NCBI RefSeq assembly: GCF_005144475.1
Contig: NZ_SWJZ01000026.1
Location: forward strand, 1-64,000
Direction of reading: 5' to 3'
Source of the DNA: Rhodobacter capsulatus
GTDB taxonomy: Bacteria > Pseudomonadota > Alphaproteobacteria > Rhodobacterales > Rhodobacteraceae
Length of the DNA: 64,000 nt
The notes beneath the pieces are model-generated. The model was not told the DNA's origin. It made no database searches and worked only from the letters and a program-made list of their open reading frames with translations. Below are positions 37,119 to 55,773 of the stretch, piece after piece (positions within the stretch are counted from its first letter, which is position 1; the number at the start of each line of letters is the position of its first letter). A program made the translations under genes and the position numbers.

Positions 37119-38891
37119 ATGCGGATGACCACCGAAGAAGCCTTCGTCAAAGTTTTGCAGCGCCACGGGATCGACACTGCCTTTGGCATCATCGGCTCGG
37201 CCTTCATGCCGATTTCCGATCTGTTTCCGCGCGCGGGCATCCGGTTTTTCGACTGCGCGCATGAGGGCTCGGGCGGGATGATGGCCGATGGTTTCACCCG
37301 CGCCTCGGGGCGGATGGCGATGATCATCGCGCAAAACGGCCCCGGGGTGACGAATTTCGTCACCGCCGTGAAGACCGCCTACTGGAACCATACGCCGATG
37401 CTGGTGGTGACGCCGCAGGCGGCGAACCGGACGATCGGGCAGGGCGGCTTTCAGGAAGTCGAGCAGATGGCGCTGTTCAAGGACATGGTCTGCTGGCAGG
37501 AGGAGGTCCGCGACCCCGCCCGCATCGCCGAGGTGCTCGACCGGGTGATCCGCAAGGCGCGCCGCGCCTCGGCGCCCGCGCAGATCAACCTGCCGCGCGA
37601 CCTGTTCACCAAGATCATCGACATCGAGCTGCCGCAGGGCGCCGATCTGCCCCGGCCCGCGCCCGATCCGCAGGCGCTCGACCGCGCGGCGGCGCTGCTT
37701 TCGGGCGCGCGGTTTCCGGTGATCCTGAACGGCGCAGGGGTGGTGCTCTCGGACGCGATCCCCGACACGGTGGCGCTGGCCGAGCGGCTCTCCGCCCCGG
37801 TCTGCGTCGGCTATCAGCACAATGACGCTTTCCCGGGCGCCCATCCGCTTTATGCGGGGCCTTTGGGCTACAACGGCTCGAAAGCCGCCATGCAGTTGAT
37901 TTCAAAAGCCGATGTGGTGCTGTGTCTGGGCACCCGGCTCAACCCGTTCTCGACGCTGCCGGGCTATGGCATCGACTATTGGCCGAAGGCGGCAGCGATC
38001 ATCCAGGTGGACATCAACCCCGACCGGATCGGCCTGACGCGGCTGGTCAGCCTTGGCATCGCCGCCGATGCCGGGGCGGTGGCGCGGGGGATCCTGGCGC
38101 GGCTGGCCCCCGAGGCGGGCGAGGCCGACCGGGGCGCGCGCGGCGCGCTGATCGCCACGACGAAAAGCCGCTGGGCGCAGGAACTCGCCGCGATGGACCA
38201 CGAAGACGACGACCCGGGCACCAGCTGGAACGAACGGGCCCGCGCCGCGAAACCCGGTTGGATGAGCCCGCGCATGGCCTGGCGCGCGATCACGGCAGCC
38301 CTGCCGCCCGAGGCGATCCTGTCCTCGGACATCGGCAACAATTGCGCCATCGGCAACGCTTATCCAAGCTTCGCGGCGGGGCGGAAATATCTGGCGCCGG
38401 GGCTGTTTGGCCCCTGCGGCTATGGGCTGCCCGCGATCGTCGGCGCGAAGATCGCCTGTCCCGGGGTGCCGGTGGTCGGTTTCGCGGGCGACGGCGCCTT
38501 CGGCATTTCGGTCACGGAACTGACGGCGATCGGCCGCGCCGACTGGCCCGCGATCACCATGGTGGTGTTCCGCAACTACCAGTGGGGCGCGGAAAAGCGC
38601 AATTCCACGCTTTGGTATGACGACAATTTCGTCGGCACGGAACTTGATCCGCAGGTCAGCTATGCCGGGATCGCGCAGGCCTGCGGCTTGCAGGGCGTCG
38701 TGGCCCGCACGATGGAAGAGCTGACCGAGGCGCTGCGGCGGGCGCTTGACGCTCAGGCGGCGGGCCGGACGGTGCTGATCGAGGCCCTGATCAATCAGGA
38801 ACTGGGCGAGCCGTTCCGCCGCGATGCGATGACGAAGCCGGTCGTGGTGGCGGGCATCGATCCCGCCGACATGCGGGGGCAGCCGCTGTAA
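37119..38891 (+). CDS. xsc: Sulfoacetaldehyde acetyltransferase Xsc
   Basis: The product is 590 residues, a thiamine-diphosphate enzyme. The cofactor-activating glutamate is in FFDCAHEGSGGMMADGF and the ThDP/Mg motif is GFAGDGAFGISVTE...FRNYQW. Xsc cleaves sulfoacetaldehyde with phosphate into sulfite and acetyl phosphate. Sulfite could then be oxidised by the Soe-type enzyme at 21.8 kb or reduced for assimilation, and acetyl phosphate used by acetate kinase, encoded at 59.8-61 kb. AGGAGAG precedes the ATG. Confidence 0.95.
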   Translation: MRMTTEEAFVKVLQRHGIDTAFGIIGSAFMPISDLFPRAGIRFFDCAHEGSGGMMADGFTRASGRMAMIIAQNGPGVTNFVTAVKTAYWNHTPMLVVTPQAANRTIGQGGFQEVEQMALFKDMVCWQEEVRDPARIAEVLDRVIRKARRASAPAQINLPRDLFTKIIDIELPQGADLPRPAPDPQALDRAAALLSGARFPVILNGAGVVLSDAIPDTVALAERLSAPVCVGYQHNDAFPGAHPLYAGPLGYNGSKAAMQLISKADVVLCLGTRLNPFSTLPGYGIDYWPKAAAIIQVDINPDRIGLTRLVSLGIAADAGAVARGILARLAPEAGEADRGARGALIATTKSRWAQELAAMDHEDDDPGTSWNERARAAKPGWMSPRMAWRAITAALPPEAILSSDIGNNCAIGNAYPSFAAGRKYLAPGLFGPCGYGLPAIVGAKIACPGVPVVGFAGDGAFGISVTELTAIGRADWPAITMVVFRNYQWGAEKRNSTLWYDDNFVGTELDPQVSYAGIAQACGLQGVVARTMEELTEALRRALDAQAAGRTVLIEALINQELGEPFRRDAMTKPVVVAGIDPADMRGQPL

Positions 38892-38932: not shown

Positions 38933-39682
38933 TCAGGCCGCCGCGCCGAACAGCACATCGAGCAGGCGCTGTTCCAGCGCCGCCACGGCGGCCGCCCCGT
39001 GACGCCGGGGGCGGGGCAGGTCGATCGACAGATCCAGCGCGATCCGCCCCGCATCCAGCACGATCACCCGATCCGCCAGCACCACCGCCTCGGCGACATC
39101 ATGCGTCACAAGGACCGCGGTAAAGCGCTTTTCGCGCCAGACCCGTTCCAGAAGCCCCTGCATCTCGATCCGGGTCAGCGCATCCAGCGCGCCCAGGGGC
39201 TCGTCCAGCGCCAGCACATGCGGCGCGCCGACCAGCGCCCGGGCCAGCGCCACCCGCTGTTTCTGCCCGCCCGAAAGCGCCGCGGGCCAGTCCCCCGCAC
39301 GCTCGCCCAGACCGACCTCGGCCAGGATCGCCCGGGTGCGGGCCGTGGCGTCGGCCCCCTCGGCGAGCCCGGTCAGACCGACCGCGACATTCTCGCCGAT
39401 CCGGGCCCAGGGCAGCAGCCGCGGTTCCTGAAACATGATCCGCGGGCCCGCCGCGTCCCGCCCGGACCCGTCGCGCAGGATCGTGCCGCCGTCCGGGCGG
39501 TCAAGCCCGGTGAGCAGGCGCAGGAAGGTCGATTTCCCGCAGCCGGACTTGCCGATCACCGCCAGAAACTGCCCCCGCGGCACGCTCAGATCGAGCCCGC
39601 AAAGCACCCGCTTGTCGCCAAAGCGCCGCTCGACCGCGCGAAAGCTGAAAGCCGCGGCAGAAGATTGCGATGCAGAGGTCAT
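38933..39682 (-). CDS. Sulfonate-type ABC transporter ATP-binding protein (SsuB-like)
   Basis: The product is 249 residues with Walker [18 protein letters not shown]-loop [11 protein letters not shown] (the QEPRLLPW form is typical of SsuB/NrtD), signature [16 protein letters not shown] and Walker [14 protein letters not shown]. It powers the importer whose permease and binding protein are encoded upstream on the minus strand; its start overlaps the permease stop. Substrate is likely an organosulfonate or related sulfur compound, inferred from family and location. Confidence 0.87.
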
Positions 39683-40521
39683 GTCGAACCCTTTCCCGAA
39701 AAGGCCGGGTGCCATTGCAGGCAGGCCCGTTCCAATGCGCGGGCAAGGCTGTCGGCCAGCTTGCCCAAAAGCGCATAGATCAGGATCGACAGCACCACGA
39801 CGTCGATCTGCAGGAATTCCCGCGCCTGCATCGCCATGTAGCCCAGCCCCGCCTGCGCCGAGATCGTCTCGGCGACGATCAGCGTCAGCCACATGATGCC
39901 CAGCCCGTAACGCAGCCCGGTGAAGATCGCGGGCAGCGCCCCGGGCAGGATGACGCGGGCAAACAGCCGCGCGCGCCCCATGCCGTAGATCCGCCCCATC
40001 TCGATCAGCTGCGGGTCGGTGCTTTGAATGCCCAGAAGCGTGTTGACATAGATCGGAAAGAACACCCCCAGCGCGACAAGGAAGATCTTCGCCTCCTCGC
40101 CGATGCCGAACCACAGGATGACCAGCGGGATCAGCGCCAGATGCGGAATGTTGCGGATCATCTGCAGCGTGGTGTCTGTGAGCGCCCGGCTTTGCGCCGA
40201 AAGACCATTGGCAAGGCCCAGCGCGAAGCCGATGCCGCCGCCAAGCAGGAAGCCGGTCAGCGCGCGGGCGGCGCTGACGGCGATGTTGCGGGCCAGATCG
40301 CCCGAGAGCGTCAGCGCCCAGCCCGCCGCCAGCACGGCGGACGGCGCAGGCAGCACATTGGCGCGGATCACCCCCGCCCGCGCCAGCCCCTCCCACAGCG
40401 CCAGCGCCAGCACCGGCAGCGCCCAGCCGACCAGCGCCCGCCCGGCCGGCCGCAGGCGCCGCAGCCGAGCCGGCGACAGGGCGCGGGCCAGCCGGTCCGG
40501 CTCGGTGGTCATCACGGTCAT
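39679..40521 (-). CDS. Sulfonate-type ABC transporter permease (SsuC-like)
   Basis: The product is 280 residues with six membrane spans. It has the SsuC family blocks [20 protein letters not shown] (after the third span) and the EAA loop [20 protein letters not shown]. It overlaps the ATPase gene by 4 bp and follows the binding-protein gene closely. The set is separate from tauABC and from the third set at 51-54 kb. Confidence 0.87.
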
Positions 40522-40532
40522 CGTCTTGTCCT

Positions 40533-41492
40533 TCAGCCCTTCGCCGGGGTCCAGAGCGCGTCGGAGACGGTGATCGCGGTGGGGATCAGGCCGAGCCGGA
40601 AGAACCGGTCCGCGGTGTCCTGCTGCGCGGCAAGGATCTCGGGGGTGATCTCGAAAATGCCGAACTGCGCCCGGTCGGCGGCCAGTGTCTGCGCCGCGAT
40701 CGGCACGCCGGTGACCTCGTGCAGGGCCTGGGCCACCTCGGCGCGGTGGCTGTCGGCCCAGCTTGCCGCCGCTTTCAGCGCCGCCAGCACCGCCTCGATC
40801 ACCGGGGTGTTCGTCGCCTCCGCGGCAAAGTCGCGGTTGGCGAGGAACCAGGTGTTGACCCTCAGCACCTCGGGGGCGCGGATCAGCACGACGGGCTTGT
40901 GCGTCACCTCGGCGATGGCGAGGAACGGATCCCAGATCGACCAGGCATCGACCGCGCCCGAACCGAAGGCGGCGGCGGCATCGGCGGGGCCCAGGAAGAC
41001 CGGCTCGACATCGCGGAAGGCGAGGCCATGCGCCTCGAGCGCCGCGATCAGCAGGTTCTGCGCGCTGGTGCCCTTGCCCACGGCGACCTTGCGCCCCCTG
41101 AGATCGGCAAGCGTCGCAATGCCGCTGTCGGGCCGCGCGATGATCGCCTCGCCCGCGCCATTCGGGGGCAGGGCGGCGACATAGGAAATCGCCGCCCCCG
41201 AGGATTGCCCGAAGATCGGCGGCGCGTCGCCGGTCCAGCCCAGCTGGATCGCGCCGACGTTCAGCGCCTCGACCAGCGGCGGCCCGGCGGCGAACTGCAC
41301 CCAGTCCACCGTGACGCCAAGCGGCGCGAGCGCGGTTTCAAGGCTGCGCTGGCGCTGCGCGATCACCGGCAGGTTGGTCTTCTGATAGCCGATCTTCAAG
41401 GTCGAGACCGTCTCGGCCCGCAACGGCGCCCCCGCAAGGGCGGCCAGCGCCAGGGCCGAAAGCCCGAAGCTGCGGCGTGTCAGTCGTGTCAT
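40533..41492 (-). CDS. Sulfonate-type substrate-binding protein (SsuA-like)
   Basis: The product is 319 residues. The signal [20 protein letters not shown] contains a twin-arginine-like RRSFGL, so export may be by Tat. The mature domain has [18 protein letters not shown] and [16 protein letters not shown], typical of SsuA/alkanesulfonate-binding proteins. It is the first gene of its operon and is divergent, across 570 bp, from the radical SAM and nitrogenase-like genes. This makes it the best candidate importer for that system's substrate. Confidence 0.87.
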
Positions 41493-42062
41493 CTGTCTGT
41501 CTCCCGGGGCGTTTGCCCGTCTGCGGATGGTGCTCTGGGGCGGACCTTCGCAGGTTTCATACACGAGTCAACGTGTCGAGTATTTCCCGGCGCCGGTGCG
41601 GAGGGGTGCCCCGCGCCGCGACCGCGCCGCTGTGCTCATCTGAAAAAAGACATTTAAAACATTGTTTTGCGAGGCGATCCTGAGGGGCGCCCCTTCGGCC
41701 GGGCGGAACGGGCGCTCTGTGGCCTGCGCGTCGCCGGGAAGAATTCCGCTGTTCTTGCCGCAACAAGACAAGATCCGTTCTCCCGCCGTGCCGAAGCCTC
41801 TGGCGCCGTTTCCGGGGCGGCGGAAAAACCTTGCTTCGACAGCGGTTTCGCGCAGGGCGATCCTTCCCCCGCGGCGCGGCAACTTGGAATGGAACCGGGC
41901 CGGGTTCCGTGGCATCAAAATAACGACGGATTTAGCCGTGTATCGGCCCCCGCCGTTGCCCGCGAGACCAGTTGATCCCGATCCCGCCCCTTCCGACCGC
42001 GCCCAAGGCCGGCCGGCCGGTGGCTGGCCCCCCTTTTGCAATGCTTTCCCAAGGATGACCCG
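41493..42062. promoter_or_regulatory. Divergent control region of the transporter and nitrogenase-like operons
   Basis: This 570-bp space has no convincing gene. It holds an AT-rich block at 41640-41670 (GAAAAAAGACATTTAAAACATTG) nearer the transporter and the shared 18-bp motif at 41918-41935 nearer the radical SAM gene. Short open frames across it resemble no protein I know. Its length suggests elaborate control of both operons. Confidence 0.5.
41918..41935 (+). promoter_or_regulatory. Copy of the shared sulfur-gene motif ahead of the nitrogenase-like operon
   Basis: AAATAACGACGGATTTAG lies 127 bp before the radical SAM start, same orientation. It matches the copy at 50364-50381 at 16 of 18 positions and that at tauA at 14 of 18. 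A TAA-N8-TTA dyad sits at its core. Confidence 0.55.
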
Positions 42063-43289
42063 ATGAATGCTCCCGTGCTTCCCCGTCCGATCGGCCTCAA
42101 GGACCGGCTCTGGGCCGAACTCGCGCTGAAGGCGCGGCTTTACACCGATGGCGTGTCGATCAGCCCCGAGGCGCTGGCCCACATCGCCCCGGGCATCAGG
42201 ACGCAAGAACAGGTCCACACGCTCTTCGAGATGGATTTCGTCGTGCATGAGGACGAACAACCCAGCCACTTCCGGCTGGATCACGGCCTTGTCGTGCCGT
42301 TCCGGCTGAACCCCGAGGCGCGCGACCGGATCGTGCTCGACGGCAACCGCACCATCGTCGTGCGCGGCGACGAGGCGCTGGCCGAGGCCTTCTTCCCGGA
42401 CCGTCCGGCGTTTTACGGCAAGCAGACCTCGGACGGGGTGGCGATGTCCACCATCGCCACGCTGGGCTCGGAACGGCAGTTCTTCGTCGCCTATTCGAAC
42501 GAGTGTTCCTACAAGGCGAAGGGCGAGGACTGCCTGTTTTGCAACATCAATTTCACCAAGGACACCTATGGCGAAAAGACCGGGATCTTCTGGAAGACCG
42601 CGCGTCAGATCGGTGAAACCTATGCCGAGGCGCATCGGGCGGGGCTGGTCGATCACGTCAACATCACCGGCGGTGTGATCCCGGAACGGCGCGAGCTGGA
42701 ATATTACCTCGATGTCGCCGATGCGCTGCGCAAATATGCGGGGGTCGAGGATTTCAACGGCACCGCCGTCGTCGCAGCGCCGATCGATCTGCGCAATCTC
42801 GACCGCTTCAAGGAGGCGGGCTACCGCACCGTGGGCCTCAACCTCGAATTCTGGGACAAGGGCATCTACAACGCGATCTGCCCCGGCAAGGCGCGGGATT
42901 CGGGCGGCTGGGATCACTGGCTGAAGGCGATCGAATATTCGGTGGGCGTCTTCGGGCATGGCAACGTGCGCTCGAATTTCGTCGGCGGCATCGAGCCGAA
43001 GAAAAGCCTTTTGGCGGGGATTCAATACCTTGCCGACAAGGGCGCGGTCGGCACCGCCTCGATCTGGTGCCCCAATCCGGGCTCGGATCTTGAAGGCCAC
43101 CGCGCCCCCGAACCGGACTGGTATCTCGATCTTGGCCACCGCATCGCGGCGATCTGGCAGAAGGCCGGCTTCACCTGGGCGAACCTTTACGACAGCAACG
43201 CCGATGTGACGAGCCTGCAGCATGACATCTGGCGGATCGAGGCGGAAACGCTGCCGATCTTCACCGGCACCGCCGTCGCCGCCGAATGA
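42063..43289 (+). CDS. Radical SAM protein associated with the nitrogenase-like reductase
   Basis: The product is 408 residues. It has a radical SAM-like core, but the cluster cysteines are spaced CX8CX2C (Cys148, Cys157, Cys160, in ECSYKAKGEDCLFCN) where the family norm is CX3CX2C. HVNITGGVIPERRELEYYLD and GLNLEFWDKGIYNAICPGKA follow. About 145 residues precede the motif and do not look like NifB. It is the first gene of a four-gene run with NifH-, NifK- and NifD-like genes. It may build or modify a cofactor, or act on the substrate; I cannot tell which. AAGGATG precedes the ATG. Confidence 0.8.
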   Translation: MNAPVLPRPIGLKDRLWAELALKARLYTDGVSISPEALAHIAPGIRTQEQVHTLFEMDFVVHEDEQPSHFRLDHGLVVPFRLNPEARDRIVLDGNRTIVVRGDEALAEAFFPDRPAFYGKQTSDGVAMSTIATLGSERQFFVAYSNECSYKAKGEDCLFCNINFTKDTYGEKTGIFWKTARQIGETYAEAHRAGLVDHVNITGGVIPERRELEYYLDVADALRKYAGVEDFNGTAVVAAPIDLRNLDRFKEAGYRTVGLNLEFWDKGIYNAICPGKARDSGGWDHWLKAIEYSVGVFGHGNVRSNFVGGIEPKKSLLAGIQYLADKGAVGTASIWCPNPGSDLEGHRAPEPDWYLDLGHRIAAIWQKAGFTWANLYDSNADVTSLQHDIWRIEAETLPIFTGTAVAAE

Positions 43290-43337
43290 CCTCGGGGGCG
43301 GCAACGCCCCCCTTTCCGCACCTGAAAGGACATCCCC

Positions 43338-44210
43338 TTGAGCCTTGATCATCCCCGCCACATCGCCATTTACGGCAAGGGTGGCATCGGCAAATCCACC
43401 ACCACCTCGAACATCGCGGCCGCTTTGGCCGAAGCGGGCCATCGCGTCATTCAGGTCGGCTGCGATCCGAAATCCGACTCGACCACGATCCTGCGCGGCG
43501 GGGCGGAGCTGCCCACCGTGCTGGACAGCCTGCGCGACCGGTCGCGCAAGCCGAAGTTGGAAGACATCTCGGCCGTGGGCTTTGGCGGCGTGCTCTGCAT
43601 CGAGGCGGGCGGGCCGGTGCCCGGCGTGGGCTGCGCCGGGCGCGGCATCTCGGCCGCGGTCGATCTGCTGGAGGAATTGCGCGTTTTTGAGACCTTCGCC
43701 CCCGATTACGTGCTTTACGACGTCCTGGGCGATGTCGTCTGCGGCGGGTTCGCCGTGCCGATCCGCGACGGCATCGCGGATCGCGCCTTCGTCGTCACCA
43801 GTTCCGATTTCATGGCGATCTTTGCCGCCAACAACCTGTTCAAGGCGATCGACAAATATGCGCCCTCGGGCGGCGCGCGGCTGGGCGGCATCATCGCCAA
43901 CAACCTGCAGCTGGACCATGCCCGCGGGCTGATCGACGATTTCGCCCATCGCACCGGCACCGAGGTGGTGGGCTATGTGCCGCGCTCGGTCGAGGTGGCG
44001 CAGGCCGAGCTTTATGGGCAAACGGTGATCGAGGCCGCGCCCTATTCCGACCAGGCCGAGGTCTACCGCAAGCTGGCGCGCCGGGTGACGGGCGATCTGG
44101 AAACGCGGTTGCCGAAGCCGCTCAACGGCCCGGATCTGAAGGACTGGGCGCGGGACTGGGGCGACCGGATCTTTGGCGCCGAACGCGCCGCCGCCGTGCG
44201 GAGCGCGTAA
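43338..44210 (+). CDS. NifH-like ATP-dependent reductase (iron protein)
   Basis: The product is 290 residues and full-length for a NifH/BchL/BchX-type iron protein. The P-loop is GKGGIGKST (residues 13-21), the two cysteines that bridge the [4Fe-4S] cluster across the dimer are Cys99 (GVGCAGRG) and Cys135 (DVVCGGFA), and switch II is DVLGD. It would deliver electrons with ATP hydrolysis to the KD complex encoded next. The start is TTG with AAAGGA 8 nt upstream. It ends 1 bp before the next gene. Confidence 0.9.
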   Translation: MSLDHPRHIAIYGKGGIGKSTTTSNIAAALAEAGHRVIQVGCDPKSDSTTILRGGAELPTVLDSLRDRSRKPKLEDISAVGFGGVLCIEAGGPVPGVGCAGRGISAAVDLLEELRVFETFAPDYVLYDVLGDVVCGGFAVPIRDGIADRAFVVTSSDFMAIFAANNLFKAIDKYAPSGGARLGGIIANNLQLDHARGLIDDFAHRTGTEVVGYVPRSVEVAQAELYGQTVIEAAPYSDQAEVYRKLARRVTGDLETRLPKPLNGPDLKDWARDWGDRIFGAERAAAVRSA

Positions 44211-44211
44211 G

Positions 44212-45567
44212 ATGGCCCGCCGCCCGAGACTGGAGCCGCGCGAGACGCGGCTTGACGCGACGCAGGCCTTGCTGGGCCGTGCCGCCGATCTGGCCGCCGA
44301 ATTCGCCGCGGGCACGCCGCCGCGGCGGATCCGCACCTTCAGCGAAGCCGCCCCCGATGATCTGCGCCCGGCGCTGGCTTTGCTGTCGGACATCCCCGAT
44401 CTGGGTCTTGTCGTGCATGGGCCGCGCGGCTGTGCCGTCCGCGCGCCCGGGGCCGCGCCGCTCGCCGTGACCGATCTTGATCAGCGCGACACCGTGCTCG
44501 GCTCGGGCGAGGTGCTGGCCGAGACGGTGCGGGCGCTGGACGCCGCGCATCCTCTGGCGGCGATCGCGGTTCTGGGCAGCCCGGTCGTCGCGATCAATTC
44601 CGATGACATCCGGGCGACCGTCGCGGCGCTTGGCCTCGAGCTGGACAAGCCGGTGGTCTGGGTCCGCACCGAGGGGGTCCGTTCGGCCGTGCCCGCGACC
44701 GGCGGCGATGCGGCGGCAGAGGCGCTGTTGCAGCTGGTCGATGCCGAGGAGACCGAGCGCGAACCGGGGCTTTTGAACCTGCTCACCAGCACCCGCAGCC
44801 CCGAACTTGCGGCGCTGGCGGGCCAGATCGAGGCGCTGGGCTGGCGGGTCAACATCCTGCCCGCGGGGGCCGGGGTGGCCGACATTGCCCGGGCGGGCCG
44901 GGCCGAGGCGAGCCTTGTTCTGGCGCCGGATCTGCTCGGGCTCTTGGCCGAGGGGCTGGAAACCCGGTTCGGCGTGACCCGGCTGGATGTCGCGCTGCCC
45001 TTGGGCGCGCAGGCGACGGTGGCGGTCTTGCGCCGGGTGGCGGCGCTGGGCGGCGCGGCGGCCCCGGCGGCCCCGCCGCGCAACCTGTCGCAGCCGCTTG
45101 CGGGGCGGCGCCTCGCGCTGGCCTTGCCCACCGCCTGGGGGCTGGCCGCGGCAGAGCTGATCGGCGATCTGGGCGGCGCGGTGACGGTGCTTTCGGTGCC
45201 GCATCTGGACCGCAGCCATGCCGCGGCGCTGGGCGCGCTGGCCGAGCGCTGGCCGGATCTGCAGATCCATGTGGGCGAGGGGCAGGGCTTTGAACTGGCG
45301 GGCCTGCTGCGCCGCAATGCGCCGGATCTGCTGCTGGGCGCCAGCGATGCGGTGGCGGTGGCGTTGCGGCAGGGCCTGCCCGCCGCGGTGCTTGATCCGG
45401 CGCGGCTGATCGGGGCGGGCGCGGCCGAGGCCTTGACCGGGGCGGTCGAGACCGCCCTTGCCCGCCGGGCCCTGGCGCGCACCGCGGCGCAAAGCGCGCG
45501 GCCGGGCTATACGCCGGGCTGGCTGAAGCGCAGCCCCGACTGGCATATCAAACAGGAGGTGCGCTGA
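44212..45567 (+). CDS. Nitrogenase-like catalytic subunit, K-type, with a single cysteine
   Basis: The product is 451 residues of the nitrogenase component 1 fold. The region VVHGPRGCAVRAPG...TDLDQRDTVLGSGEVLAETV aligns with the NifK segment around its second P-cluster cysteine. Cys74 is the only cysteine in the whole protein. The place of the third P-cluster cysteine reads AVLGSPVVAINSDD. It therefore cannot bind a P-cluster or a FeMo-type cofactor by itself, and should donate one ligand to a [4Fe-4S] cluster shared with the partner subunit, as in chlorophyllide reductase. It overlaps the partner's start. Confidence 0.82.
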   Translation: MARRPRLEPRETRLDATQALLGRAADLAAEFAAGTPPRRIRTFSEAAPDDLRPALALLSDIPDLGLVVHGPRGCAVRAPGAAPLAVTDLDQRDTVLGSGEVLAETVRALDAAHPLAAIAVLGSPVVAINSDDIRATVAALGLELDKPVVWVRTEGVRSAVPATGGDAAAEALLQLVDAEETEREPGLLNLLTSTRSPELAALAGQIEALGWRVNILPAGAGVADIARAGRAEASLVLAPDLLGLLAEGLETRFGVTRLDVALPLGAQATVAVLRRVAALGGAAAPAAPPRNLSQPLAGRRLALALPTAWGLAAAELIGDLGGAVTVLSVPHLDRSHAAALGALAERWPDLQIHVGEGQGFELAGLLRRNAPDLLLGASDAVAVALRQGLPAAVLDPARLIGAGAAEALTGAVETALARRALARTAAQSARPGYTPGWLKRSPDWHIKQEVR

Positions 45568-46889
45568 TGGGCCGCCCGACGCTTTTTCCCTTTGGTGGCT
45601 GTGCCTTGCACGGCGCAATTCAGGCGGCCGCGGCGATCCCGGGGGTCACGCCCGTCGTCCATTCCACCCCCGGCTGCGCGCTGCGGGCGGGGCTTTTTGC
45701 CGGGGGCGGGCGCTACGGGGCACCGCCCGGGCTGCCGCGGATCGCCGCGACCAACATGGCCGACAAGCATGTGGTTTTCGGCGGCACCTCGCGGCTGCGC
45801 GAGGAGATGAAGAACGCCCTTGCGGTGCTCGAGGGCGGGATGCTGGCGGTGCTGACCGGCTGCCCGGCCGAGATGATCGGCGATGATGTGGGCGCGATGG
45901 TGAAGGAACTGACCGCACAGGGCGAGCGGGTGGTGGCGGTGCAGACGGCCGGATTTCACGGCCCCGCGCATGACGGCCATGCCCGGCTGCTGGCCGGTCT
46001 TCTGGCCCATGTCGCGCCCGTGCCGACGCGCGCCGACCGGCCGCTGGTGAACCTTTTCGGCATCGCCCCCGGGCTGGATCCGGGCTGGCTGGCCGAGATC
46101 GAGACGCTGTCGCGGCTGCTGGAGGGGGTCGGCCTTGCGGCCAATCCGATCTTCGGCCCCGAGGGCGGGCTTGCGTCGCTGGACGCTTCGGCCGGGGCGG
46201 CGCTCAGCCTTGTGCTGTCGCCCTGGGGCGCGGCGCCCGCCGAGGTGCTGGCGGCGCGGCATGGGATCCCGGTGCTCGTGGCGGACGGGTTGCCGGTGGG
46301 GGCCGAGGCGGCGGAAGCTCTGGTGCGGAGGCTCTCCGACCGTCTCGGCCATCCGCTTGACGCCGCGGCAGAGGGTTATCTGGCGCGCGAACGGGCGCAT
46401 CAGGGCTGGCGTTTCGATGCGGTGCTGGAGCGGCTGGCGGCGCTGGCGCCGCGCCGGGTCGTGGTGGCCGATGGCAGCCTGCGCGCCGGGCCGCTGGCGC
46501 GGTTCCTGGGCGAGACGCTGGGCTGGCCGGTGCGGGTGATCCTGACCGACAGCCCGCCCGAGGCGTTCCGCGCGCCCCTGGCCCGGACCGGCGTGGCCTG
46601 CGCCGGGGACGGCGCCGATCTGGCGCGGGCGCTGAGCGAAAGCGGCGCCGATCTGCTGCTGGGGGGCGCATCCGCGGCGGCGGTCGCGGCGGCGCGGGGG
46701 CTGGACGTTGTCGATCTGGGCGCGGCCCCGGGGCTCGAGGGTCTGGGCGGCGGTCTGAGCGGACGGGGCGGGGCGGAGCGGGTCTTCGCGGCGCTTTTGT
46801 CCGCGCTGGAGCCCGCGCCGCGGGCGGCATCCGTCTTTCCGATCCCCGCCGCGGTGCCGTCGGCGCCTTTTGCGCGCGTGGCGGAATAA
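45567..46889 (+). CDS. Nitrogenase-like catalytic subunit, D-type, with three ligand cysteines
   Basis: The product is 440 residues of the nitrogenase component 1 fold. Three cysteines fall where NifD has its P-cluster ligands: Cys12 (FGGCALHG), Cys37 (STPGCALRAG) and Cys99 (TGCPAEMIGDD), with VVFGGTSRLREEMKNAL between. No cysteine corresponds to the NifD cofactor ligand in the C-terminal half; the remaining one (about 350, GVACAGDG) is not in that context. With the partner's Cys74 this gives a 3+1 set for one [4Fe-4S] cluster. CAGGAGGTG precedes the ATG; the start overlaps the partner's stop. Confidence 0.82.
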   Translation: MGRPTLFPFGGCALHGAIQAAAAIPGVTPVVHSTPGCALRAGLFAGGGRYGAPPGLPRIAATNMADKHVVFGGTSRLREEMKNALAVLEGGMLAVLTGCPAEMIGDDVGAMVKELTAQGERVVAVQTAGFHGPAHDGHARLLAGLLAHVAPVPTRADRPLVNLFGIAPGLDPGWLAEIETLSRLLEGVGLAANPIFGPEGGLASLDASAGAALSLVLSPWGAAPAEVLAARHGIPVLVADGLPVGAEAAEALVRRLSDRLGHPLDAAAEGYLARERAHQGWRFDAVLERLAALAPRRVVVADGSLRAGPLARFLGETLGWPVRVILTDSPPEAFRAPLARTGVACAGDGADLARALSESGADLLLGGASAAAVAAARGLDVVDLGAAPGLEGLGGGLSGRGGAERVFAALLSALEPAPRAASVFPIPAAVPSAPFARVAE

Positions 46890-51362: not shown

Positions 51363-52175
51363 TCATTGCAGCCCGAAGCTGCGCATCAGATCGCGCCGCA
51401 GCGCGACGAAATCCGGCGCGCCCCGATCGCGCGGCCGCGGCAGGGGCACCGCGATCAGCCGCGGCGGCGTTTCGGTCTCGCGCGACAGCACCAGCACCCG
51501 GTCGGCCAGATAGATTGCCTCTTCCAGATCATGGGTGACCAGGATCATCGTCACCTTTTCCTCGGCCCAGATCCGCGCCAGCTCTTCCTGCAGGGTCAGT
51601 TTCGTCATCGCATCCAGCGCCGCAAGCGGTTCATCCAGAAGCAGGATTTCCGGTTGCACCGTCAGCGCCCGGGCAATGCCCACGCGCTGCGCCATGCCGC
51701 CCGAGAGCTGCCGCGGCAGCGCGGTCTCGAAGCGCTCCAGCCCGACAAGGCGCAGCGCATGCCGGGCCTTCGCGCGGGCCTCGGCGCGGGGCGTGCCGCG
51801 GACCTCGAGGCCGAAGGCCGCATTGTCGAGCACGCTTGCCCAGGGCAGCAGCCGCGGTTCCTGATAGATGATCGCGCGCTCGCGCCCGACGCCCGCGACC
51901 GGGCGCCCGTCGATCAGCACGCGGCCGCGGTCGGGGGTTTCAAGCCCCGCCAGCACCCGCAGAAGCGTGGTCTTGCCGCAGCCCGAGGGGCCGACGATGG
52001 CAAGGCTTTCGCCGCCGGCCACGGTCAGGTTCAGCCCGCGCAGCACCGCCAGCGCCGCGCGGTTGAGGGTGAAGGATTTGTGCAGATCCTGCACCGAAAC
52101 CTCGCCGCGGGTCGCGGCGAGGGTCCGGGGCGGGACGGTCCCCGACGGGGAGGCAGGAGCGTTCGGGGCCATCAT
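51363..52175 (-). CDS. Sulfonate-type ABC transporter ATP-binding protein (SsuB-like), third set
   Basis: The product is 270 residues with Walker A GPSGCGKTTLLRVLAG, Q-loop [11 protein letters not shown], signature QLSGGMAQRVGIARAL and Walker B ILLLDEPLAALDA. About 30 N-terminal residues precede the ABC domain. It is the last gene of the four-gene minus-strand run 55415 to 51363 that includes a flavin monooxygenase. Either of two adjacent ATG codons could be the start. Confidence 0.85.
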   Translation of the reverse strand: MMAPNAPASPSGTVPPRTLAATRGEVSVQDLHKSFTLNRAALAVLRGLNLTVAGGESLAIVGPSGCGKTTLLRVLAGLETPDRGRVLIDGRPVAGVGRERAIIYQEPRLLPWASVLDNAAFGLEVRGTPRAEARAKARHALRLVGLERFETALPRQLSGGMAQRVGIARALTVQPEILLLDEPLAALDAMTKLTLQEELARIWAEEKVTMILVTHDLEEAIYLADRVLVLSRETETPPRLIAVPLPRPRDRGAPDFVALRRDLMRSFGLQ

Positions 52176-52179
52176 CGCC

Positions 52180-53160
52180 TCAGTTCGTGGCCGGGGCCGG
52201 GGCTTCGGCCGATTGGTAAAGGATGTCGGCCGCCGCGATCTTGCCCGGGGCGATCTTGCCCTCGCGCGTCAGGATGTCGATCCAGAATTGCAGATCGCGG
52301 GTCGTGGCAAGGCCGCCCTCGCGCACGCCATAGCCCGCAAAGTATTGCGCCACCTCGGGATTTTCGTCACGTTCCTGCAGCACCCGGGCAAAGATCGCCT
52401 TCGTCTCCTCGGGATGGCTGCGGGCGTAATCCAGCGCCTTCGTCGCGCCATCGACAAAGGCGCGGGCCTCGGCCGGATGGGCGTCGATCCAGTCGCGGCG
52501 CAGCACGGCAAAGCCGCCCGCGATCTCGCCCAGCACGTCGGTATCGTCAAAGACCGCGCGCAGCCCGCCCTTTTGCCGCGCGGCGCCCTCGAAGGTGGTC
52601 TGCCAGTAGCCGAAAGCCGACACATCGACCTGACCCGCGCGCAGCACCTGTTCCAGCTGCGGCCCGGGCACGACGACCAGGTTCGCGGCATCTTCGGGCA
52701 GGCCCTTTTGATGCAAAGCCTCGCGCACGACATAATCCAGATGCGCGCCGAGCGTGTTCACCGCGATCGTATGGCCGGGCAGATCGGCGATGGTCCTGAT
52801 CGGGCTGTCGTCGCGCACGTAAAAGATCGATTGCGAGGCGTCGTTGATGCCGTTCGTCGGGAAAACCGCCACGAAATCATTGCCGCCCGCGATCGCGTTC
52901 AGCACCGCGGGCGTCGCGGCCGAGCCGATATCGGCGCTGCCGCCCGCCAGCGCGATCAGCGTTTCCGGCCCGCCCGTGGCATAGCCGAGGTTTTCCAGCG
53001 TGATCCCGGCGGCGTCGTAATAGCCCAGTTCCGCGGCCAGCTCGAAGGCGGCCAGCCCGCCGTGATTGGGCAGATAGCGCAGCGTCACCGGATCGGCGGC
53101 GGCGGAAAGCGCGGTGCCGGAGAGCAGCGCGGCAAGGGCGAGAGAGCGAAGGTGGGTCAT
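52180..53160 (-). CDS. Sulfonate-type substrate-binding protein (SsuA-like), third set
   Basis: The product is 326 residues with a Sec signal peptide (MTHLRSLALAALLSGTALSA). The mature part has VTLRYLPNHGGLAAFELAAE and GYYDAAGITLENLGYATGGP, then GSADIGSAATPAVLNAIAGG, the usual NMT1/SsuA-type binding domain. It precedes the ATPase gene by 4 bp and follows the permease gene by about 30 bp. The ligand is unknown; the neighbouring monooxygenase suggests an organosulfur compound. Confidence 0.85.
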   Translation of the reverse strand: MTHLRSLALAALLSGTALSAAADPVTLRYLPNHGGLAAFELAAELGYYDAAGITLENLGYATGGPETLIALAGGSADIGSAATPAVLNAIAGGNDFVAVFPTNGINDASQSIFYVRDDSPIRTIADLPGHTIAVNTLGAHLDYVVREALHQKGLPEDAANLVVVPGPQLEQVLRAGQVDVSAFGYWQTTFEGAARQKGGLRAVFDDTDVLGEIAGGFAVLRRDWIDAHPAEARAFVDGATKALDYARSHPEETKAIFARVLQERDENPEVAQYFAGYGVREGGLATTRDLQFWIDILTREGKIAPGKIAAADILYQSAEAPAPATN

Positions 53161-53192
53161 CTGTCTGTCTTTCGGTTGCAAAGGGGGAAGGG

Positions 53193-54044
53193 TCAGCGCG
53201 GCTCGGACCAGCGGCAGAACCGGGCCTGGGCGGCCACAAGCGCGGCGTTCAGCGCGAGGCCAAGGAAGGCGAGAAGAAAGATCGCGGCGAACATCAGATC
53301 GGTGCGGAAGTTGAACTGCGCGTTCATCACCTGAAAGCCGAGACCCTTGTTCGCGCCGATCATCTCGGCCGCGATCAAGAGCAAAAGCGCCGTGGTGCCC
53401 GAGAGCCTGAGCCCGACAAAGATCGCGGGCACCGCCGCGGGCAGGATCACCCGGGCGAAAAGCGTCAACCGCCCGGCGCCGAAACTGCGTGCCATTTCAA
53501 GCAGTTTGCCATCGACCTGCTGCACCCCGCCGATGGTGGCGAGCAGGATCGGAAAGAGGCTTGCCCAGAAGATCACGAAGACCTTCGAGGTCTCGCCCAA
53601 GCCCAGCAGCAGGATGAAGACCGGATAAAGCGCCAGCGCCGAGGTTTGGCGAAAGAGTTGCAAGATCGGGTCAAGCGCGCGCTCCACCCCCGGCATCTGC
53701 CCCATCGCGAGGCCGAGCGGCACCCCCACCGCGACCGAGGCGGCAAAGGCGATCCCCGCCCGTTGCAGGCTGATCGCGATGTCATCGAGCAGCGCCCCCG
53801 ACACGATCCCCTGCCACAGCGTCGCCGCGATCCGGTCGAGCGGCGGGAAGACCGAGGGGTTCAGCCATCCCGCGGTGGATGCGATCTGCCAGAGCGCCAG
53901 AAAGCCCACCAGCAGCCCGTAGCGGGTAAAGACCCGCGCGGCGGCCTCAAGCCCCCGGCGCAGATTGGCGCCAGAGAGCGGGGGCAGCGGGCGTTCCGGG
54001 GTTTCGATCGGCGGAACCGAGATTTCAAGCCCTTGAAATGCCAT
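53193..54044 (-). CDS. Sulfonate-type ABC transporter permease (SsuC-like), third set
   Basis: The product is 283 residues with a 40-residue cytoplasmic N-terminus and six membrane spans. Family blocks are FRQTSALALYPVFILLLGLG and the EAA loop [20 protein letters not shown]. It directly abuts the monooxygenase gene upstream and precedes the binding-protein gene, a gene order (monooxygenase, permease, binding protein, ATPase) that favours one uptake-and-cleavage pathway. Confidence 0.86.
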   Translation of the reverse strand: MAFQGLEISVPPIETPERPLPPLSGANLRRGLEAAARVFTRYGLLVGFLALWQIASTAGWLNPSVFPPLDRIAATLWQGIVSGALLDDIAISLQRAGIAFAASVAVGVPLGLAMGQMPGVERALDPILQLFRQTSALALYPVFILLLGLGETSKVFVIFWASLFPILLATIGGVQQVDGKLLEMARSFGAGRLTLFARVILPAAVPAIFVGLRLSGTTALLLLIAAEMIGANKGLGFQVMNAQFNFRTDLMFAAIFLLAFLGLALNAALVAAQARFCRWSEPR

Positions 54045-55415
54045 CTATTCCGCCGCCTGTGTGCTGCGCCGGGCCTGCGCCCAGCGGGTTTCGGGGAAGG
54101 GCAGGCCAAGGTTCTCGCGCAGGGTGCGGCCCTCGTATTCGGTGCGGAACAGGCCGCGGCGCTGCAGCTCGGGGATCACCAGATCGACGAAATCGGTCAG
54201 TCCCGTCGGCAGCCACGGCGGCAGGATGTTGAAGCCGTCGGCGCCTTCGTTTTCCAGCCAGTCCTGCAGCGTGTCGGCGATGGTCTCGGCCGTGCCGACC
54301 AGTGTCAGATGCCCGCGCGCCGAGGCAACCCATTGGTAAAGCTGGCGGATCGTGAAGCCATGTTCATCGGCGATGGCGCGGATCAGGGCCTGGCGCGATT
54401 TCATCCCCTCGGTCGGCGGCGCGGGCGGCAGCGGCCCGTCCAGATCGTAACCGCGCAGATCGAGCGTGCCGCCAGTGAGCCCGTTCAAAAGCGCGACGCC
54501 ATCTTCGGGCAGGATGAGCGCCGTCAGCCGGTCGTATTTCTCCTGCGCTTCGTCAAGCGTGCGCCCGACAAAGGGCGAGACCCCGGGCATGATCAGCAGA
54601 TGATCGGGGCTGCGCCCCAGCCCGCGCGCCCGCGCCTTGATGTCGCGATAAAATTCCTGCGCCGTTTCAAGGTGTTGATGCGCGGTGAAAATCACCTCGG
54701 CATGGGCGGCGGCAAAGCCGCGGCCGTCCTCGGACTGGCCCGCCTGCACGATCACCGGATGGCCCTGCGGGCTGCGCGAGACGTTGAGCGGCCCCTTGAC
54801 CTGAAAATGCGCGCCCTTGTGATTGGCCGCGTGCAGCTTGTCCGCGTCGAAGAACTGCCCCGTCGCCTTGTCGCGCACGAAGGCGTCATCCTCGAAACTG
54901 TCCCAAAGCGCCTTCACCACCGCGACATGTTCATGCGCGCGGGCATAGCGCTCGGCATGGGGCAGCTGGGTGTCGCGGTTGAAATTCTGCGCCGTGGCGT
55001 CGCCCGTGGTGGTGACGACGTTCCAGCCGGTCCGGCCCGCGGTGATCAGGTCAAGCGAGGCGAATTTGCGGGCAAGCGTATAGGGTTCCTCGTAGGTGGT
55101 CGAGGCGGTGGCGATGAAGCCGAGCTGTTTCGTGTGCTGCGAGAGCGCGGCGAACAGCGTCACCGGCTCGAAGCCCGCGACCTTGGCGTTGCCGCCCTCG
55201 ATGCCGCCGCCGAAGCTGACCGAGAGGCCGTCGGCGAGGAAATAGGCGTCGAACAGCCCGCGTTCGGCCTCCTTGGCGAGCTGGATGTGAAAGGCGAGAC
55301 TGGTCGCGCCATCCGAGGGCTGGTCGGGCTGGCGCCAGGCGGCGATGTGCTGACCGCCACCGGGCAGGAAGGCGCCAAGGCGCAGTTTGCGTTTCGGGTG
55401 GATATTCGTGGTCAC
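54045..55415 (-). CDS. Flavin-dependent monooxygenase, NtaA/SnaA/DszA family
   Basis: The product is 456 residues, a luciferase-like FMN monooxygenase of the two-component group that includes DszA (dibenzothiophene sulfone) and NtaA. Motifs include LRLGAFLPGGGQHIAAWRQP, EAERGLFDAYFLADG, and GRTGWNVVTTTGDATAQNFN. It would open a C-S or C-N bond using reduced flavin from a separate reductase, not seen nearby. The start is GTG at 55415, chosen because AGGAGA lies 6 nt upstream. It heads the operon with the third sulfonate-type transporter. Confidence 0.88.
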   Translation of the reverse strand: MTTNIHPKRKLRLGAFLPGGGQHIAAWRQPDQPSDGATSLAFHIQLAKEAERGLFDAYFLADGLSVSFGGGIEGGNAKVAGFEPVTLFAALSQHTKQLGFIATASTTYEEPYTLARKFASLDLITAGRTGWNVVTTTGDATAQNFNRDTQLPHAERYARAHEHVAVVKALWDSFEDDAFVRDKATGQFFDADKLHAANHKGAHFQVKGPLNVSRSPQGHPVIVQAGQSEDGRGFAAAHAEVIFTAHQHLETAQEFYRDIKARARGLGRSPDHLLIMPGVSPFVGRTLDEAQEKYDRLTALILPEDGVALLNGLTGGTLDLRGYDLDGPLPPAPPTEGMKSRQALIRAIADEHGFTIRQLYQWVASARGHLTLVGTAETIADTLQDWLENEGADGFNILPPWLPTGLTDFVDLVIPELQRRGLFRTEYEGRTLRENLGLPFPETRWAQARRSTQAAE

Positions 55416-55773
55416 GGGGGATCTCCTGAGGGGCAAGAAAGGGGCCCGTCGCGGGCGGCGACGAGGGGGGCGGGTCCGGAAGGGGGGATCGGGGGGCTTT
55501 GCTGGCGGCTTGCGCCGCGGCGGCGTCAGGCCCTGCGGTCAGCGCCGCAGCGGCAGAGCCCGGCCGCGCAACCGACGCGGCACAGGGGGAACGAAAGCGC
55601 GGGCATGGGGGCTCCAAAACACGATTTGTCTTGTCGTGTAATCTGGCATCTCTTGCGGTTTGGAGCCATTCCAAATTTGCGGGCCGGGACGACTGCGGGC
55701 TTCTTCGTCAGGGCGTCGGGGCGGAAGTTCCTTCCTGACCGCGGTTCGCGGCCGCGCCCGAAACCGGCAGGCG
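55416..55773. promoter_or_regulatory. Region upstream of the monooxygenase operon
   Basis: This 358-bp region contains a 9-bp inverted repeat (GGCTCCAAA at 55610-55618 and TTTGGAGCC at 55659-55667), inside which lies an imperfect palindrome AACACGATTTGTCTTGTCGTGT at about 55618-55639. No gene was recognised. It is the likely control region of the minus-strand operon starting at 55415. Confidence 0.45.

Follow-up and report, generated by a model that had tools for sequence, protein, structure and literature searches.

A nitrogenase-like four-gene locus of Rhodobacter as an orthologue of the isethionate reductase operon isrBHDK

Introduction

In a stretch of 64,000 nucleotides of Rhodobacter DNA (the window), four consecutive genes at 42063-46889 raise the question of which nitrogenase-like enzyme they encode and whether this enzyme is already known. 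The original prediction had read them as four plus-strand genes, namely a radical SAM gene, a NifH-like gene and two component-1 genes, the last two overlapping, and this reading was confirmed (Table 1); the overlap of isrD and isrK comprises one base (TGA/ATG). It had also regarded the enzyme as probably uncharacterised, which did not hold, since isrBHDK was already published in 2024 (PMC11423573). The locus is almost certainly the isethionate reductase operon isrBHDK of a Rhodobacter species near R. capsulatus SB1003, in which isrBHDK, formerly nflBHDK, corresponds to rcc02237-rcc02234 (PMC11423573).

R. capsulatus uses isethionate as a sulfur source in the absence of oxygen via the nitrogenase-like IsrBHDK, and deletion of isrB, isrH or isrDK in each case abolishes anaerobic growth on isethionate. 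The isrDK mutant is rescued by islAB from Bilophila, and R. sphaeroides gains the isethionate trait from isrBHDK together with ssuCAB. IsrDK co-purifies and shows a dithionite-sensitive band at 410 nm, the spectrum of a redox-active Fe-S protein. Isr has been reported from several phyla (all PMC11423573), and IsrBHDK models have been used for annotation (PMC12330013). The organosulfur substrate anticipated for the present locus is, for R. capsulatus, the sulfonate isethionate (PMC11423573).

Table 1. Features of the isr locus and its surroundings in the window. The rcc tags of the isethionate importer come from PMC11423573 and were assigned by gene order; G003 is another genome of the genus.
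Feature	Position	Strand	Evidence
xsc, sulfoacetaldehyde acetyltransferase (taurine route)	37119..38891	+	TIGR03457 890.2 bits, cut-off 676.4; 94% in G003
Extra SsuABC-type importer, three genes	38933..41495	-	ATPase 38933-39700, permease 39679-40521, binding protein 40533-41495
Conserved non-coding block 5' of isrB, candidate regulatory region	41842..41947	+	Three-species alignment (window, G003, G016), about 105 bases
isrB, radical SAM protein, 408 aa	42063..43289	+	PF04055 3.2e-8; NF045502 above cut-off
isrH, NifH-like ATP-driven iron protein, 290 aa	43338..44210	+	PF00142 4.4e-96
isrD, NifD-type component-1 subunit, 451 aa	44212..45567	+	PF00148 1.5e-41; structure matches and tree
isrK, NifK-type component-1 subunit, 440 aa	45567..46889	+	PF00148 3.6e-60; structure matches and tree
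ssuB-type ATPase, isethionate importer, rcc02225 by order	51363..52175	-	PF00005; 91% in G003, syntenic
ssuA-type binding protein, isethionate importer, rcc02224 by order	52180..53160	-	PF09084; 98% in G003
ssuC-type permease, isethionate importer, rcc02223 by order	53193..54044	-	PF00528; 96% in G003

Identification and distribution of the locus

IsrH, IsrD and IsrK all scored below the cut-off of every NCBIfam model for the named nitrogenase and nitrogenase-like enzymes. Across the whole genome, which probably belongs to a phototrophic, nitrogen-fixing Rhodobacter, PF00148 has 12 matches, among them nifEN, anfDK, bchNB and bchYZ as well as nifDK, the latter recognized by position and tree. 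Since the genome encodes all of these besides, the isr locus represents a separate system.

Two same-genus genomes, G003 and G016, carry close orthologues. The identities of B, H, D and K to the window proteins are 95, 97, 90 and 88% for G003 and 95, 97, 87 and 84% for G016. The collinear part of the window spans roughly 26.3-62 kb for G003, whose compared stretch ends there, and roughly 28.7-55.4 kb for G016. Among the genes shared in this way are xsc, the importer at 51363-54044, the tau genes and an aminotransferase that is tpa by position. IsrB and full-length IsrK occur in the same three of 18 genomes of the genus, while the other IsrK matches in these genomes reach at most 32% identity and cover only part of the query. 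It is the same gene order and the same cysteine numbers as published, together with the identity to G003, the collinear locus and this co-occurrence, that identify the window locus as isrBHDK.

Beyond the genus, a scan of contigs confirmed at least two loci, both with 24% identity and both nif-type in the tree. In samples of 385 genomes of the class, 398 of the phylum and 394 of the family, in which up to four candidates per genome were scored and from which G003 and G016 were evidently absent, nothing but the window's own genome matched at E 1e-20; the reported occurrence of Isr in several phyla (PMC11423573) is compatible with this outcome. Plasmid records contained two IsrK matches, both Mar-like in the tree, and at least 500 IsrB matches, each below 60% identity. 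The 30 listed among the latter show 26-31% identity and are mostly annotated as MSMEG_0568 family.

Subunit assignment and cluster ligands

Compared with solved structures, the component-1 protein with one cysteine matched best to chain A of 9d9u/9fmg (9.3e-23; chain C, 1.6e-9), and the protein with three ligand-position cysteines to chain C (6.4e-42; chain A, 5.3e-12). 9FMG is the structure of MarDK2H2 (PMC12552129), and we take chain A to be MarD and chain C to be MarK. In the tree, the chain A fragment was found on the NifD side and the chain C fragment on the NifK side. By structure matches and tree, the 1-Cys subunit is D-type and the 3-Cys subunit K-type, so that the D and K labels first given to the two proteins were reversed. 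The naming of IsrD and IsrK in PMC11423573 is thus supported.

IsrD has a single cysteine in 451 residues, Cys74, and IsrK has four in 440, namely Cys12, Cys37, Cys99 and Cys345, the last of which is not conserved (Leu in G016). The IsrD of G003 contains one additional cysteine that is absent from the other IsrD rows. We could reproduce the predicted counts and numbers of the lone Cys74 and of Cys12/37/99, and all four residues are conserved in the three Isr rows. They are also the residues named in PMC11423573, next to Cys99/135 of IsrH.

For the ligand positions, one alignment of 13 D-type rows and one of 13 K-type rows were used, both of them with the three Isr rows and one Mar fragment. 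IsrD Cys74 aligns with the middle P-cluster ligand of NifD, whereas the remaining two NifD ligand columns hold residues other than cysteine in all three IsrD rows; all three D-side cysteines are present in the nine other full-length D-type rows. On the K side, Cys12/37/99 align with the three P-cluster ligands of NifK in every IsrK row. The alignment hence bears out four cysteines at P-cluster positions with a 3+1 split. The column of the FeMo-cofactor cysteine of NifD is Ala in 3/3 IsrD rows, in agreement with the earlier claim that a cofactor cysteine is lacking, and PMC11423573 describes the cofactor histidine as absent from Isr and the cofactor ligands as missing. IsrH retains both cluster cysteines, as expected from the original prediction, the columns of Cys99 and Cys135 being Cys in all 10 NifH-type rows aligned; its P-loop is evident in the translation.

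The radical SAM partner and the proposed working of Isr

IsrB scored 425.2 bits against the variant radical SAM model NF045502 (cut-off 125) and 97.9 bits against the MSMEG_0568 model, below the cut-off of 303.7 bits. It carries the motif CX8CX2C at Cys148/157/160, with identical spacing in the window, G003 and G016. A relationship to NifB was rejected, as the nifB models gave no match to IsrB at E 0.001 and the comparison with the NifB-like protein of L024 gave no meaningful alignment. The sole match of IsrB among the solved structures had an E of 0.61 and was taken as chance. Its nearest relative in Swiss-Prot is BciD, a tetrapyrrole enzyme (PMC11423573).

We propose that isethionate would be imported by SsuCAB and that its sulfonate group would be released as sulfite, which could then be assimilated. 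IsrH, the ATP-driven iron protein, would deliver electrons to the IsrDK heteromer, whose Fe-S cluster would occupy the position of the P-cluster, with IsrD Cys74 and IsrK Cys12/37/99 as its probable ligands; we infer both its type and this ligation. Reductive cleavage would then presumably yield ethanol, and IsrB, which belongs to a radical SAM family other than that of NifB, would contribute an essential step. The copy in the window presumably acts as the Isr of R. capsulatus does. In PMC11423573 it is cautiously proposed that a cluster, for example of the [4Fe-4S] type, may be bound by the four IsrDK cysteines, with a non-cysteine ligand left possible by the authors. The same work also suggests, with caution, that the substrate may be reduced directly at such a [4Fe-4S] cluster, as the original prediction had it.

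A different division of labour might be considered, in which IsrB is not a maturase: it would either cleave the C-S bond through radical chemistry of its own or use a radical to activate IsrDK, and IsrHDK would supply the electrons. The essentiality of IsrB (PMC11423573), its distance from NifB in the family models and its co-occurrence with IsrK in the genus would fit such a role; the known lyase IslAB also works by a radical mechanism, and direct cleavage or activation by IsrB is entertained in PMC11423573. However, in the characterised nitrogenase-like enzymes named there, the D/K component is the site of substrate reduction, and we regard the radical role of IsrB as an unlikely alternative. 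Somewhat more speculative still is a combination of both ideas. A single [4Fe-4S] cluster would occupy the P-cluster site, bound by one cysteine of the D side and three of the K side, in mirror image to NifEN and chlorophyllide reductase, and the non-NifB radical SAM partner would take part directly in C-S cleavage and not in cofactor building. Such an enzyme would be a hybrid in which nitrogenase-like chemistry is joined to that of radical SAM proteins.

Neighbouring genes

Between xsc and isrB, the window contains a three-gene importer, whereas the same interval measures about 248 bases in G003 and about 422 in G016. Its binding protein scored above the cut-off of the SsuA_fam model, while for the permease and the ATPase the best models were SsuC and SsuB, both below cut-off. 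We found no orthologue of this importer at this place in G003 or G016; the best matches of the binding protein are at most 32% identical in G003 and at most 34% in G016. This locus variant with a second, sulfonate-type importer is new but minor. For two cores of the conserved block upstream of isrB, the window contained no more occurrences than expected by chance. Next to the isethionate importer, a monooxygenase is encoded at 54045-55436.

Overall, the observation that drew attention to this locus is confirmed, and the enzyme is an orthologue of a known system described in a close relative. Isr connects nitrogenase evolution with the scavenging of sulfur under anaerobic conditions. With the window, the genus gains one more isr copy, which supports the view that the four cysteines are constant within it.

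Comparison with known systems

The isethionate reductase of the window shares gene order, locus, cysteine numbers and the importer with the published IsrBHDK (PMC11423573), from which its locus differs by the extra SsuABC-type importer. The nearest solved relatives are those of MarBHDK (PDB 9FMG, PMC12552129), which likewise acts on a C-S bond and has a radical SAM partner. In the main D/K tree, from which four long Bch rows were left out, IsrK joins the Mar-like K proteins (99/96) and IsrD the Mar-like D proteins (81/84, not starred). Both lie outside the four Mar-like rows with moderate support (85/76, 87/82), so that Isr branches separately from both the Mar-like and the nitrogenase rows, as had been predicted; the tree was the check proposed for placement within the Mar clade. 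With the Bch rows included, IsrK remains with the Mar-like K rows (98/98), and IsrD falls beside BchN/BchY with a support of no more than 57/50, too low to fix its place. In a NifH tree of 10 rows, IsrH groups with the Mar-like locus of Chlorohelix (97/99), a position made unsafe by the very long BchX branch.

That Isr is a Mar-type enzyme (methylthio-alkane reductase) which has lost ligands and kept its reaction could be argued from the adjoining position in the tree and from the comparison with solved structures, in which both subunits match Mar chains best. We nevertheless reject membership and consider this reading highly improbable, given the placement outside the Mar-like clade, the incomplete P-cluster and cofactor ligands, with the cofactor cysteine missing and a single one left of the three P-cluster cysteines on the D side, and a partner that is not NifB-like. 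Mar has a P-cluster, an [Fe8S9C] cluster and, in MarB, a protein with NifB motifs (PMC12552129), whereas Isr is without those ligands. NifB-like genes, scoring below the nifB cut-off, are present at both Mar-like plasmid loci.

An enzyme of the chlorophyllide reductase type with a tetrapyrrole substrate, for which the 3+1 split of BchXYZ and the relationship of IsrB to BciD (PMC11423573) might speak, is just as remote: the models for BchX (196.9 of 331.2 bits) and BchZ (36.2 of 529) stayed below cut-off and that for BchY gave no match at E 0.001, true bchYZ genes lie elsewhere in the same genome, and sulfonate genes surround the isr locus. Bch membership was rejected on the family models and on the ligand distribution, the very long Bch branches making the trees an unsafe test of Isr against BchXYZ. 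Isr resembles BchXYZ and the scaffold NifEN in its four cysteines at P-cluster positions, divided three to one. In BchY and NifE, however, the D side provides three of them and in BchZ and NifN the K side one, while Isr shows the opposite arrangement, with one in IsrD and three in IsrK, a mirrored distribution of ligands that is made explicit here.

Genes and conserved sequence around the isethionate reductase operon
Features flanking isrBHDK, the isethionate reductase operon (positions in the window)
Feature	Position	Strand	Remark
SsuABC-type importer, three genes	38933-41495	-	lies between xsc and isrB
Conserved non-coding block	41842-41947		upstream of isrB; kept in three Rhodobacter genomes
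Luciferase-family monooxygenase	54045-55436	-	PF00296

The SsuABC-type importer is probably an acquired insertion. It was not found between xsc and isrB in the two genomes of the genus with a collinear isr locus (G003 and G016), and none of the 7 genus genomes searched gave a match above 36%. The non-coding block is a candidate site of sulfur-source control, and a search of the window found no second copy above chance.

By gene order, the monooxygenase gene corresponds to rcc02222. PMC11423573 describes rcc02222 as strongly induced by isethionate, yet anaerobically dispensable. According to the same paper, isethionate is also used aerobically by an unknown route, for which we infer this monooxygenase gene as a candidate.

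Gene sets resembling methylthio-alkane reductase (Mar-like) were also observed on plasmids. Treponema saccharophilum pTS2 (L023 2114-18775) has two pairs of Mar-like D and K genes together with nifH, one NifB-like gene and three NifX-like genes; cysteine-synthesis genes adjoin them. On the Candidatus Chlorohelix allophototropha plasmid (L024 3333-18444), a set of Mar-like H, D and K genes is accompanied by a NifB-like gene and ABC transporter genes, and another gene annotated nifB lies nearby.
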